From a virus, in IMG/VR virus record IMGVR_UViG_3300038714_000013, positions 1 to 22,458 of that record: 22,458 nt of DNA; one strand, 5' to 3'. The position numbers were made by a program, and so were the translations under genes. This document shows positions 17,678 through 22,002 of the stretch, piece after piece. The notes below the pieces were generated by a model that saw only the letters and a program-made list of their open reading frames with translations, was not told the origin of the DNA and made no database searches. The stretch's first letter is position 1. Each line of letters opens with the position of its first letter.

Positions 17678-18508
17678 TTAAACATAACCCACTATCTTTG
17701 GGTTCTTTGCCTGTGACATCACGGCAGGTTTCTCTTCTAAAGTTTTCCAACACTCAAAACGAAACTCACAAAAGCTACAATTCTTTCCTAGTATCTTATT
17801 GCCTGTTGGTTTACCTCTGAAGGTTTCATCTTCAGCTTCAAAACATCTTTCAAACTTATTCTTTGCAAGACGTTTAGCTGTATCTTTTAATTTAGTTATT
17901 TCTTTTGATAAGTCAATACCTGTAGCAGGAATATATTTAAAATCTGCATTATTTTTATTTATAACCCACCAACCACCGACTTTCTTGCCTGATGCTTCTG
18001 CATAACCTGCAAGTTGTCCGACATATCCGAATGGGTCACTCTCTGATACAGTATCAAAAGATACAAACTTATTTGTATAAGACCATGTAGATGCAGATTT
18101 AATATCATCTACTGCACCATTTACCACTAGGTCATATGTACCTTTTACATTTGACTTACCTAATTTTAATTTGACTTCTTTACTATCTTCGAAGTCTACA
18201 CCTGCTTCAGTTAGCACACCTTTAAATACAGCTTCAACTATATCTCCTAGCATAAAGTTAAGTATTCTTTTAGGTGATTCTACTTTCTTATCAGGTTTGT
18301 TTTTTTGAAACCAAAGTTGGCAGTAGGGTCTGCCGATATTAGACATTCGTAATCTAAATGTATCATCCTCTTCACGAGAGAATTGTTTCTTTAGTGCATC
18401 ACGAATATGTGACACAACCATTTCGATTGTGTCATCACTCATACCTGCAAGACCCTTACCTGCTTTTTCAAGGTAGGTATGTAACTTTAATTCAGCTACT
18501 GAGTTCAT
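17678..18508 (-). CDS. Cas4-like Fe-S PD-(D/E)XK nuclease
   Basis: This 276-residue protein is predicted to be a recombination or host-DNA-degrading exonuclease. The PD-(D/E)XK core is visible as Glu92 ('GDIVEAVF'), Asp126 ('GTYDLVVNG'), Asp135-x-Lys137 ('VDDIKSAS') and the Q-x3-Y motif, Gln165 and Tyr169 ('YVGQLAGYA'). Four Cys are arranged as in Cas4 and AddB: Cys63 ('RPYCQLWF') before the core and Cys244, Cys247 and Cys253 after it ('CSFCEFRFEC'), so a 4Fe-4S cluster is likely. No CRISPR or cas1/cas2 is in the window. Its neighbours are endonuclease I and a candidate SSB, so it probably fills the role of T7 gp6 exonuclease. The start overlaps the preceding stop as TAATG, without a strong ribosome site. 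Confidence 0.85.
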   Translation of the reverse strand: MNSVAELKLHTYLEKAGKGLAGMSDDTIEMVVSHIRDALKKQFSREEDDTFRLRMSNIGRPYCQLWFQKNKPDKKVESPKRILNFMLGDIVEAVFKGVLTEAGVDFEDSKEVKLKLGKSNVKGTYDLVVNGAVDDIKSASTWSYTNKFVSFDTVSESDPFGYVGQLAGYAEASGKKVGGWWVINKNNADFKYIPATGIDLSKEITKLKDTAKRLAKNKFERCFEAEDETFRGKPTGNKILGKNCSFCEFRFECWKTLEEKPAVMSQAKNPKIVGYV

Positions 18509-19419
18509 TAAAACTGTCCATTGAACTCTTCGTCAGTAACTTTTACAAAGTCATCAACTACCTTTTCATCCTCTTTGCTGATAGCATCCTCAGTATTACC
18601 TGCTTTATCCTTCCAAGCGTTAAAGATGTACACATTGTAGTTTTCAATCCACTGCATGAACTCAGAGAATTGGTCTTGGTCTTGGTCTACAATTTCAATT
18701 GTATCTTTATTAACAGTTGCTACAGGAATGTAGTAGGTGTTACCACTTGGTAGCTTTCTTTCTTCACTTGCAAGTGCTATCTCGTGTTGCAAAGTAAGGT
18801 GTTTCATAGAAGCTATCTTAGCCACAGCATCACCCATAACCTTGAAAGCATCTCTATTATCTATCTCCCATATGAAAGGTAGATTTGCAATCTCCATTGC
18901 ATCATTACCATCAGCATTGAGTACGTTACTAGCTGATAGAGTACCTATTAAAACACGAACTCTCTTAATACTTTTTAAGAGTGCTTTTGTTTTATCAGGT
19001 AGTGAAGCATAGTCTTTGACGAAACCTGTAGGTTTGCCACAGTTAAAACCACCCATGTTATCCTTTAAATCTACATTTAAATTATCAGACATAACAGTCT
19101 TAACATAAAAACCTTTGCCACCTTCAGGCTTTACAAACTTTTTGTACATAAATCTCTGTACATAAGGTCTGATTTTTACGTCATCAGAATAGAAAACATT
19201 ATTATTATTTAAGTCGTCTATTTTATAGACACCACCATTTACTATGGCAGCTTGGGTTTTCTTACCCTTCACTTCAATCTCACCCATGATTGGGGAGTGA
19301 GATATCTTTAACCTCGCAAGTTGCGAAGTCTGTTTATTTTGTGACATGTCTGCATTCATGCCCATTTGTTGTGCCATTGCAGAAAAGTTATTTGTATCAA
19401 TTGTATTATTATCTAACAT
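18508..19419 (-). CDS. Candidate single-stranded-DNA-binding protein (unassigned family)
   Basis: This is a 303-residue protein. Residues 1-35 are Asn/Gln/Met-rich and disordered. The middle is a mix of strands with basic and aromatic residues ('IRPYVQRFMYKKFVKPEGGK', 'KSIKRVRVLIGT'). The last 27 residues are acidic and end in Phe ('VVDDFVKVTDEEFNGQF'), like the protein-interaction tails of phage SSBs such as T7 gp2.5. The locus, between polymerase and exonuclease, is where SSBs sit. No OB-fold motif is provable by eye. It has a strong AAAGGAG site and its own promoter at 19452-19480, so it is probably made in larger amounts than its neighbours, as an SSB would be. Confidence 0.55.
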   Translation of the reverse strand: MLDNNTIDTNNFSAMAQQMGMNADMSQNKQTSQLARLKISHSPIMGEIEVKGKKTQAAIVNGGVYKIDDLNNNNVFYSDDVKIRPYVQRFMYKKFVKPEGGKGFYVKTVMSDNLNVDLKDNMGGFNCGKPTGFVKDYASLPDKTKALLKSIKRVRVLIGTLSASNVLNADGNDAMEIANLPFIWEIDNRDAFKVMGDAVAKIASMKHLTLQHEIALASEERKLPSGNTYYIPVATVNKDTIEIVDQDQDQFSEFMQWIENYNVYIFNAWKDKAGNTEDAISKEDEKVVDDFVKVTDEEFNGQF

Positions 19420-19451: not shown

Positions 19452-19480
19452 GTTATATCAGGCTATGTCTTTCGTGTCAA
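19452..19480 (-). promoter_or_regulatory. Sigma70-type promoter in the 3' end of polA, for the SSB-like gene
   Basis: On the minus strand TTGACA (19480-19475) is followed by a 17-base spacer and TATAAC (19457-19452): six of six and five of six matches at ideal spacing. The -35 box and spacer lie in the last codons of polA. Transcription would start near 19445 and give a leader of about 26 bases with AAAGGAG before the ATG at 19419. The bases after the -10 box (TAGACA, then CAA and AAGGA) resemble those after the promoter at 254-282. Confidence 0.75.
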
Positions 19481-21485
19481 GCCAATTATTACCTATTTTT
19501 GCTTCTAGTTCTAAAGGAACATTCAGATTAATATTAAACTGACTATCAATAATATCTTTAAGATTACTATTAGTATTCTTAATAACATTAATTACATCTT
19601 GTTCCTCATTGGGGTGGACATCAATAACAATACTATCATGCACAGTATTTACAATACATGATTGTAATTTATCTAATTGTTTTTCAATATCCAACAACAC
19701 CACAGGTACAATATCTGCAGTTGCAAATGATTGTACAGGAAAGTTTTTTATCTGTGTAAAGAATGTAACAGAACCATTTGACCTTCGTTCTACAAAGGGA
19801 AATGAAAACTCTCTACCTGATGGTGTTGTTATCTTGCGTGTGCTCATAGCTTCTTCAGCCAACTTAGAATGCCAAAGGGAAATACCTTTGTATTTCTGCG
19901 TGAACTGTTTATAATATGTTGCTTCAGCAGGAGTTCTCCCAAATCCTGTTGCTCCATAGAGGGGTGCAAAGGTATGGGCTTTTGCTTCCTGTCTCGTAGT
20001 CTTCTGACCACTCTCCGAAATAACCTTCGCAGTGTAGCTATGTACATCAAATCCATCTTCAATCTCCTTCATTGCTGTTTTATCCTGTGACAAATATGCA
20101 GCAGTCCTAAACTCTAATTGTGCAAAGTCTGCTTCAAGTATCTTGCCACCTTCCCACCTAGATATAAATACTTTCTTAACAGGAAACGTACCACCTCTAG
20201 GCATGTTCTGCATGTTAGGGTCTGCTCCACTGAACCTGCCTGTAGCTGTCCTGTGTTGTAATAATCTAACGTGCAATAAATTATCTGACTTTAAATTGTT
20301 ATCTATACCATCTATAAAAGAAGATAAGTAACTATCTAGTGCTGACAGACGTATAGCTTTTGATAAGAATGTCTCAGCTTTCTTCATACCTTTCTGCCTA
20401 GCTATAGATTTAAGTAACTCTAGATTACCCTTAGATGTACTCCAACCATGTGCAGAAATCCACTTAGAATTAGGTGCTGTGAACTTCATACCTGCAATTT
20501 CTTTTGTAGGTATAAACAGATACCCTAGTGCATTACATGTAGGACACCTATTCTCTTTAGCAAAAGGTGTACCATCTTTTCTAATTTTACGTATCTTTCC
20601 TTTGCCATCACATTTTTGACACCTTATTGCCTTAGTCTTATAAAGAACACTCGAATGTTCTTTGACCTTTGCTTTGTAGTCTTCGATGTGCATATGTGGA
20701 GATAGCATAACAGTCCATTGCTGTTTATCTTTTGGTTTTCTACTATATATCAACCAAGATAATTGTTCAGGACTATTGAGATTGATAGGTGTATCACCCA
20801 TGAAATCTCTTACCTCTGCCTGTAAGAACTCTTCAATCTCTTTCTTTTCTTTTGTAAACTCTTCTTTAACATTACTTAGCTTAGCCACATCAACACGAAA
20901 ACCATTTCTATATATATTAGCCAAAGTAAGGGCGACACGATTAGTAAGATTAACTGTATTAGTAAGTCCACTATATTCTTCGGTAGAAAGTTTATTAGTA
21001 ATCTCATTATATAACTCCTTTGTGGCATGTAAGTCACTACTTAAATAAGATGATAACTCATCAGGTGGTATCTCATCTACACCCATGCCTTGTTTAAAAT
21101 ATTCTTTTAATGTGTCTTGCTTCTTTGTATCTAGGTTATATCTCTCAGCACACATCTCTAATGACAATGCTTGTTTCTGTCCACGTTGTAATACATACTC
21201 ACCTAGCATAGTATCAAACACATCACCATTATATTTAAAATTACTTTCCCATAACCACATTAAATCGTGAACGATATTATGTCCAATAAGAACTGTTGTC
21301 TTATCTAATAACTCTTGTATTTTATTAAAGTAAGATGCATCCTCATCCATTCTGTACAGATATTCAACTCCGTTATCTGTCAAAGCACCCACCATAATCA
21401 GACTGTTGTCAGGTTCAAATGGGTCTAAATGTAACTTACCTTCACGTTCAGTTACAGTATTTTCTACATCAAGAACTAGTTTCAT
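19458..21485 (-). CDS. polA: Family A DNA polymerase with 3'-5' exonuclease and inserted DnaJ-like zinc finger
   Basis: This 675-residue replicative polymerase has an exonuclease domain at 1-160 with Asp6-x-Glu8 ('LDVENT'), 'GHNIVHDLMWL' and 'YLSSDLHATKELY'. The polymerase domain runs from about 400 to 675 with 'TGRFSGADPNMQNMPR', motif A 'EADFAQLEFR' (Asp453), motif B 'RQEAKAHTFAPLYG' and motif C 'TVHDSIVIDV' (Asp617). The residue equal to E. coli Phe762 is Phe506. Between the two domains, residues 289-321 form a CxxCxGxG and CxxCxxxG pair, like DnaJ zinc fingers and like the polymerase of SAR116 phage HMO-2011. There is no 5'-nuclease domain. AAGGAG lies before the ATG, which overlaps the GIY-YIG gene by 17 bases. 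Confidence 0.96.
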   Translation of the reverse strand: MKLVLDVENTVTEREGKLHLDPFEPDNSLIMVGALTDNGVEYLYRMDEDASYFNKIQELLDKTTVLIGHNIVHDLMWLWESNFKYNGDVFDTMLGEYVLQRGQKQALSLEMCAERYNLDTKKQDTLKEYFKQGMGVDEIPPDELSSYLSSDLHATKELYNEITNKLSTEEYSGLTNTVNLTNRVALTLANIYRNGFRVDVAKLSNVKEEFTKEKKEIEEFLQAEVRDFMGDTPINLNSPEQLSWLIYSRKPKDKQQWTVMLSPHMHIEDYKAKVKEHSSVLYKTKAIRCQKCDGKGKIRKIRKDGTPFAKENRCPTCNALGYLFIPTKEIAGMKFTAPNSKWISAHGWSTSKGNLELLKSIARQKGMKKAETFLSKAIRLSALDSYLSSFIDGIDNNLKSDNLLHVRLLQHRTATGRFSGADPNMQNMPRGGTFPVKKVFISRWEGGKILEADFAQLEFRTAAYLSQDKTAMKEIEDGFDVHSYTAKVISESGQKTTRQEAKAHTFAPLYGATGFGRTPAEATYYKQFTQKYKGISLWHSKLAEEAMSTRKITTPSGREFSFPFVERRSNGSVTFFTQIKNFPVQSFATADIVPVVLLDIEKQLDKLQSCIVNTVHDSIVIDVHPNEEQDVINVIKNTNSNLKDIIDSQFNINLNVPLELEAKIGNNWLDTKDIA
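20523..20621 (-). other. DnaJ-like zinc-finger insertion within polA
   Basis: This codes for residues 289-321 of the polymerase: Cys289-x2-Cys292-x-Gly-x-Gly, a basic spacer of about 20 residues, then Cys314-x2-Cys317-x3-Gly. Two CxxC pairs of this kind bind one zinc in the central domain of DnaJ. It lies after the exonuclease domain, where thumb or linker would be expected, and well before motif A. Confidence 0.8.
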
Positions 21486-22002
21486 TTTTTAAACTCCTTA
21501 CTACTTCGATGGCACTATCCAAAGGCATTTTAAACCACTCACATTTTTCTTCTTCTGCTATCCAACTAGCCCTCTCATGTGCCATGCTCTCAGCTAATCG
21601 TCTATCATCTACAGGAACAGCTAACTCTAGTTTATAATCCCTGAAAGGTGAAGAAGTTTGATACCCTTTTAATCTATCCTCTGCATCAACTGCCATACCT
21701 ATTTTTACCCAACCTTTCCATGCAGGGTTGGACATTACATATATATAACCATCTACTATCTCATTAAAAGAATGAGACATATTCTTTTTTATTTCTTCTA
21801 ATTTATCCGTATTTGACTTTTTAGTCAAGCCCATTTTTTCAAATGCTTTCCACATACCTTCTTTTAAATATGTTTTATTAAATGGATGTTTAGGATTACC
21901 TAAACGCATTCTCTTTCCATTAATAGTAACTCTTGCCCTGTTTTCATAGTAACCTTGCAGGGTTGGTGGATGTAGTTTAGTAAAGTCTTTTGTTGTTCTC
22001 AT
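21469..22002 (-). CDS. T5orf172/GIY-YIG-type domain protein
   Basis: This is a 177-residue protein. Residues 85-160 match the T5orf172 (GIY-YIG clan) pattern: 'GYIYVMSNPAWKGWVKIGMA' (the GIY and YIG halves), Arg110 in 'EDRLKGYQTSSP', Glu138 and His142 in 'RLAESMAHE', and 'EWF' at 155-157. The clan makes metal-dependent DNA nicks. The N-terminal 80 residues are basic, with 'TLQGYYENRARVTINGKRMR' possibly a DNA-binding part. It sits between helicase and polymerase, starts with an ATGA overlap and ends 17 bases inside polA, so it is a fixed operon member rather than a recent homing insertion. GAGGT lies 8 bases before the ATG. Whether it cuts DNA is unproven. Confidence 0.8.
   Translation of the reverse strand: MRTTKDFTKLHPPTLQGYYENRARVTINGKRMRLGNPKHPFNKTYLKEGMWKAFEKMGLTKKSNTDKLEEIKKNMSHSFNEIVDGYIYVMSNPAWKGWVKIGMAVDAEDRLKGYQTSSPFRDYKLELAVPVDDRRLAESMAHERASWIAEEEKCEWFKMPLDSAIEVVRSLKNETSS

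Follow-up and report, generated by a model that had tools for sequence, protein, structure and literature searches.

HMO-2011-type phages, described in passages of PMC9038755 as a dominant and broadly distributed group in the ocean, are recognised there by a DNA polymerase with at least 25% identity across at least 80% of its length, together with homologues of the capsid and large-terminase genes in the same genome. Polymerases of this type are all reported to contain part of a DnaJ central domain, including two CXXCXGXG motifs, and this domain has itself been used as a selection criterion (PMC9038755; PMC6918029). These two articles are the sole full-text matches for the domain together with polymerase, phage and exonuclease, and no role for the domain is given in their matching passages. 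The existence of a partial DnaJ domain in HMO-2011-type polymerases is already published; what we add here is its anatomy and its distribution.

Another phage family A polymerase, that of T7, carries on the tip of its thumb a basic-rich insert of a size similar to the one described below. This thioredoxin-binding domain uses host thioredoxin and is not known to contain a zinc site. In simulations, the T7 insert closes over the DNA through contacts of Lys and Arg with the backbone and behaves as an intrinsic clamp with exposed basic residues (PMC5984650). It is also a docking site: the C-terminal tail of the T7 single-stranded DNA-binding protein (SSB) docks on it, as stated in a passage of PMC7699545, and a nearby basic patch is the binding site of acidic helicase tails (PMC12593628). 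Lineage-specific thumb inserts are further described for plant organellar DNA polymerases, where they are modelled as contacting duplex DNA and are linked to lesion bypass; the passages of PMC7699545 that describe them mention no zinc ribbon. For E. coli Pol I itself, truncation of the thumb is reported to lower both processivity and fidelity (Minnick 1996, as cited in a passage of PMC10061031).

The DNA analysed here, hereafter the window, is a full IMG/VR virus record of 22,458 bases from a marine phage. On its minus strand, positions 19458-21485 encode a DNA polymerase of 675 amino acids that matches both the DNA_pol_A profile (PF00476; 173.3 bits against a curated cut-off of 34.3, E 9.6e-51) and the 3'-5' exonuclease profile (PF01612; 37.2 bits against 23.6, E 3.2e-9). 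The exonuclease domain covers residues 52-166 (20988-21332, minus strand), and the matched part of the polymerase domain covers residues 340-669 (19479-20468, minus strand; profile positions 51-380). The AlphaFold2 model of the whole polymerase (mean pLDDT 87, pTM 0.82) aligns with the Bacillus Pol I large fragment over 533 residues (Z 34.7, rmsd 3.0), and by profiles and fold alike the enzyme belongs to family A (Pol I type).

Over its full length the window polymerase shares about 63% identity with its CRP-345 and HMO-2011 counterparts (62.6% for HMO-2011), and it contains one CXXCXGXG and one CXXCXXXG motif with all four cysteines, which by the polymerase criteria makes it an HMO-2011-type polymerase. 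HMO-2011, CRP-1, CRP-2, CRP-3 and HTVC033P encode the same polymerase (34-63% identical to that of the window over the full length), with a partial DnaJ motif at the same place and a similar surrounding gene order. For HMO-2011 itself the order matches that of the window: polymerase, SSB-like protein, exonuclease-like protein, endonuclease, small ORFs and B12-dependent ribonucleotide reductase. A first-pass annotation made from the sequence alone had identified the protein as a family A replicative polymerase bearing a zinc motif of the DnaJ type and had linked it to HMO-2011; the Pfam matches, the four cysteines, the identity and the gene order bear out both statements.

Between the helicase and polymerase genes, the window also contains a T5orf172/MUG113 (GIY-YIG-like) ORF (21469-22002, minus strand). 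This slot is variable, exceeding 60 bp in 45 of the 81 relatives that have both genes, and such an ORF occupies it only in L001-L004 and L067; the ORF is possibly a mobile nuclease, or the slot possibly an insertion hot spot. The polymerases of MEP402, ICP2 and QDWS535 (L085, L086 and L089) are split or interrupted, and that of ICP2 has an HNH endonuclease gene inside.

The cysteine motif can be placed on the polymerase with some precision. In the AlphaFold2 model, a long helix at residues 200-229 is followed by helices at 239-247, 352-364 and 368-397, which we take to be thumb helices H, H1, H2 and I in the naming used for Pol I structures. The H1 motif, INLNSPEQL at residue 234, aligns with FNLSSTKQL of Klenow and with the FNPNS/FNWGS motifs of other phage polymerases, and the insert comes after it. 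More specifically, the loop between H1 and H2 (residues 248-346; 20448-20744, minus strand) holds an insert of about 80 residues, modelled as two short helices (254-260 and 267-277) plus a ribbon (282-330), and the H1-H2 interval has about 93 more residues in the window than in Klenow. With respect to the Pfam domains, the insert interrupts the earlier part of the polymerase domain. Sequence position and the confident model together make it very probable that the ribbon-bearing insert sits on the tip of the thumb. The first-pass annotation had put the motif between exonuclease and palm, which is correct for the two Pfam matches and can now be narrowed to the thumb tip.

The T7 insert and the window insert occupy neighbouring loops. 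In T7 gp5 the H1 motif is at residue 334 and the extra domain precedes it, whereas in the window H1 (234) comes first and the ribbon, at 289-321, follows. A T7-type thioredoxin-binding domain, which is defined by an insert before H1, is thus not what the window encodes; a distant alignment that sets the T7 insert over the window insert is a misalignment as judged by the H1 motif, and we saw no sequence similarity between the window insert and the T7 domain. In phiKMV-like and Zobellviridae polymerases, which are non-zinc enzymes, the corresponding loop is also enlarged, indicating that a thumb loop as such does not require zinc.

Within the insert, two knuckles formed by C289/C292 and C314/C317 with their glycines span residues 289-321 (CQKCDGKGKIRKIRKDGTPFAKENRCPTCNALG; 20523-20621, minus strand), exactly the interval given in the first-pass annotation. 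The first knuckle, CQKCDGKG, is a complete CXXCXGXG, whereas the second, CPTCNALG, is CXXCXXXG: A319 replaces the middle glycine, unlike the published description of HMO-2011-type polymerases, and most relatives have G, A, T or S there. The two CxxC pairs had thus been read correctly, with the full set of DnaJ-type glycines in the first pair only. Four of the six cysteines of the polymerase fall within 29 residues, and the CxxC..CxxC arrangement arose in only 2 of 20,000 shuffles of the polymerase sequence. Between the knuckles lies a basic stretch, predicted as a hairpin (residues 297-313, KIRKIRKDGTPFAKENR; 20547-20597, minus strand), and with its outer strands the ribbon extends over residues 282-330 (20496-20642, minus strand). 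Across residues 281-330 the model has a pLDDT of 78-91 and runs from strand 282-288 through the first knuckle, short strands within 298-301 and 307-313 and the second knuckle to strand 322-330. Judged from the sequence and this modelled strand order, the topology is that of a zinc ribbon, with two CXXC knuckles on putatively antiparallel strands. The feature accordingly looks like a putative single-zinc ribbon, in which the four cysteines would bind one Zn2+, rather than a DnaJ domain.

Of 353 HMO-2011-type polymerases, the most distant of them 32% identical to that of the window, 349 keep all four cysteines. The four exceptions comprise L396, which is cut by the contig end, and L045, L062 and L066, which carry C314D. 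In these three, Asp takes the place of the first Cys of the second knuckle (DPxC) and His residues occur in the following strand, which may possibly reflect a switch of zinc ligand. Relatives that lack the cysteines yet keep the rest of the insert, named in the first-pass annotation as the finding that would speak against it, were sought among the 353 sequences; none was found, the three C314D substitutions being the only losses. The peptide patterns that fetch nearly all 353 sequences exclude the cysteine motif, with a single one falling in the hairpin, which makes the set an almost unbiased sample as far as the motif is concerned. Taken together, the clustering of the cysteines, the rarity of the arrangement in shuffles and its retention in relatives argue that the motif did not arise by chance.

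The positive charge between the knuckles is equally widespread. This segment is 21, 33 or 34 residues long. Each of its 175 distinct versions is net positive, with charges from +3 to +11 (mean +6.5), and on average the segment is among the most basic ~2% of stretches of the same length in the same proteins, and the segment of the window itself is among the most basic ~5%. Position 300 is Lys or Arg in 343 of 353 sequences and position 302 in all 353; in about 20% of sequences in the wider set, those with a hairpin of different length, residue 303 is non-basic. CRP-738-like polymerases (L084, L331-L410) have a hairpin that is 12-13 residues longer and still basic.

Used by itself as the query against phage records (E values up to 10), the insert retrieved only 12 HMO-2011-type records and one weak partial match; among phage records it is confined to the HMO-2011 group. 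A scan of bacterial and archaeal genomes yielded mostly marine MAG contigs that look phage-derived, with the motif present in one single-cell genome contig and absent from one Myxococcota relative. In a core tree built without the insert, the carriers form one clade (support 0.99) whose sister (support 0.95) comprises StenR_269, L246 and the Myxococcota contig. StenR_269 and L246 have a short Pol I-like loop, with an H1-H2 motif interval of 33-34 residues compared to 113 in the window. Because the sister clade is without the insert, the insert was probably gained once; most simply, this happened on the stem of the group. Descent of the ribbon from a phiKMV-like polymerase loop, which has a similar basic turn, is possible, but a separate gain is just as likely given that only the short loop is found in the sister clade. 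In the ribbonless Stenotrophomonas phage StenR_269, a gene for a thioredoxin domain lies immediately upstream of the polymerase (L088:1520-1786).

The gene directly downstream of the polymerase (18508-19419, minus strand) encodes a candidate partner of the ribbon, a putative gp32-like SSB of 303 amino acids with an acidic C-terminal tail. Its AlphaFold2 model gave the best VIA scores with the T4 gp32 core (Z 8.3) and RB69 gp32 (Z 8.2), values that are middling; an unrelated phiC31 integrase-RDF chain reached 7.7. Foldseek alone produced only chance-level matches, a sequence search of the PDB and PHROGs returned nothing useful, and the libraries searched gave no family name for this protein. 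An SSB-like gene occupies the same position directly downstream of the polymerase in the window, HMO-2011, CRP-3 and CRP-738, and in the relatives examined the tail of the SSB-like protein is acidic, with a mean of 10 acidic and 2.6 basic residues among the final 30. The SSB-like proteins of relatives such as L002, L003 and L005-L008 end in DDEIPF, DDEVPF or DDGIPF, a type of ending that resembles the bacterial SSB tip. Of 64 tails, 13 end in F, the terminal Phe being kept only in close relatives of the window. The helicase C-terminus is not acidic, leaving a T7-like dock for helicase tails unsupported.

We propose that zinc would staple a basic beta-hairpin onto the thumb tip, in the H1-H2 loop, and keep it rigid. 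The conserved Lys and Arg residues (300, 302, usually 303, and 313) would then contact the backbone phosphates of the nascent duplex behind the primer terminus, and the ribbon would act as an integral clamp and increase processivity. The acidic C-terminal tail of the putative gp32-like SSB from the neighbouring gene may bind to this basic surface too, in the way that the T7 domain both grips DNA and docks acidic tails. A thioredoxin-like or SSB-holding role is plausible by this analogy, given a thumb-tip insert like that of T7, though in the next loop, and a gp32-like neighbour with an acidic tail. For a basic hairpin stapled by zinc in this position, a grip on DNA is the best reading, and docking of the SSB would be either the chief alternative or an additional role. 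We estimate the probability that the ribbon clamps the duplex behind the primer end at about 50%, in view of the thumb-tip position, the conservation of cysteines and charge, the ribbon model, the SSB neighbour and the distribution in one clade. Against a DNA grip, basic hairpins are common in protein-binding ribbons too, enlarged loops occur in non-zinc polymerases, and neither C314 (in three relatives) nor the basic character of residue 303 is constant.

Were the ribbon primarily a dock for the phage SSB, the acidic tail would lie on the basic hairpin and the polymerase would be tethered to its coated template. The position of the SSB-like gene, the acidity of the tails and the bacterial SSB-like endings of close relatives are all consistent with this, as is the T7 precedent, in which the SSB tail binds the polymerase thumb insert (PMC7699545, in the passage on this contact). 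However, the terminal Phe is restricted to close relatives whereas the ribbon is universal, and acidic SSB tails have many partners; as the primary function, docking seems to us possible but rather unlikely. Less likely again is a zinc site that merely staples a long thumb loop and has no specific partner. Small inserts often carry zinc staples of this kind, and the length of the hairpin differs between subgroups while the cysteines stay, but a simple staple leaves the universal positive charge and the fixed basic positions unexplained. Recruitment of a host factor, as the T7 insert recruits thioredoxin, would suit the thumb-tip placement; we nevertheless consider it improbable, since the loop and sequence differ from those of the T7 domain and the ribbon is kept in phages that infect SAR116, Roseobacter and SAR11 bacteria, and no candidate host factor is known for it.

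A further reading takes the ribbon as a true DnaJ-derived module that engages host DnaK or keeps chaperone activity. The Pfam family DnaJ_CXXCXGXG (PF00684) matches the window with an E value of 1.8e-4 and matches 64 of 66 tested relatives, and lambda replication is stated in a passage of PMC9038755 to use DnaJ. In the window, however, the match scores 22.1 bits against a curated cut-off of 32.7 and spans profile positions 13-52 of 65, that is the inner two of four repeats; moreover, no J domain was matched by Pfam in the window polymerase at E values up to 1, in agreement with the first-pass statement that other DnaJ parts are absent. A DnaJ central domain needs four CXXCXGXG repeats and two zinc sites. 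The Cys-rich domain of E. coli DnaJ (1exk) has similar CXXCXGXG knuckles and aligns with the ribbon through its inner repeat pair, but DnaJ has all four repeats as well as J and substrate domains, whereas the window ribbon has two repeats and one predicted site within a polymerase. Compared to solved structures, the ribbon alone gave E 0.16 for E. coli DnaJ and 0.4-0.6 for phage Q antiterminators, all of them weak. Anti-TRAP, a non-chaperone with the same two knuckles (PMC2896485), weakly matches the same stretch, as do the Q antiterminators; both resemble the window polymerase in having two DnaJ-like CXXC knuckles outside a chaperone, although as proteins and in function they are unrelated to it. 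Membership in the DnaJ domain is therefore unsupported, and a retained DnaJ function is highly improbable. The term DnaJ-like used in the first-pass annotation is fair for the type of knuckle and does not extend to the domain.

The grip on DNA is thus the reading that we favour. Joined with SSB docking, it would make the ribbon a self-contained, zinc-built clamp that does the work of the thioredoxin borrowed by T7 and also docks SSB, a second and independent solution in a neighbouring loop; we advance this combined form only as a tentative possibility. The ribbon had previously been reported without a role, and its place on the thumb tip, its near-constant cysteines and charge and its candidate partner now provide a testable hypothesis. 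Should the ribbon prove to be a clamp, single-subunit replicases would have a further, zinc-based route to processivity, and, if the combined form is true, one of the most abundant marine phage groups would use an independent clamp solution.
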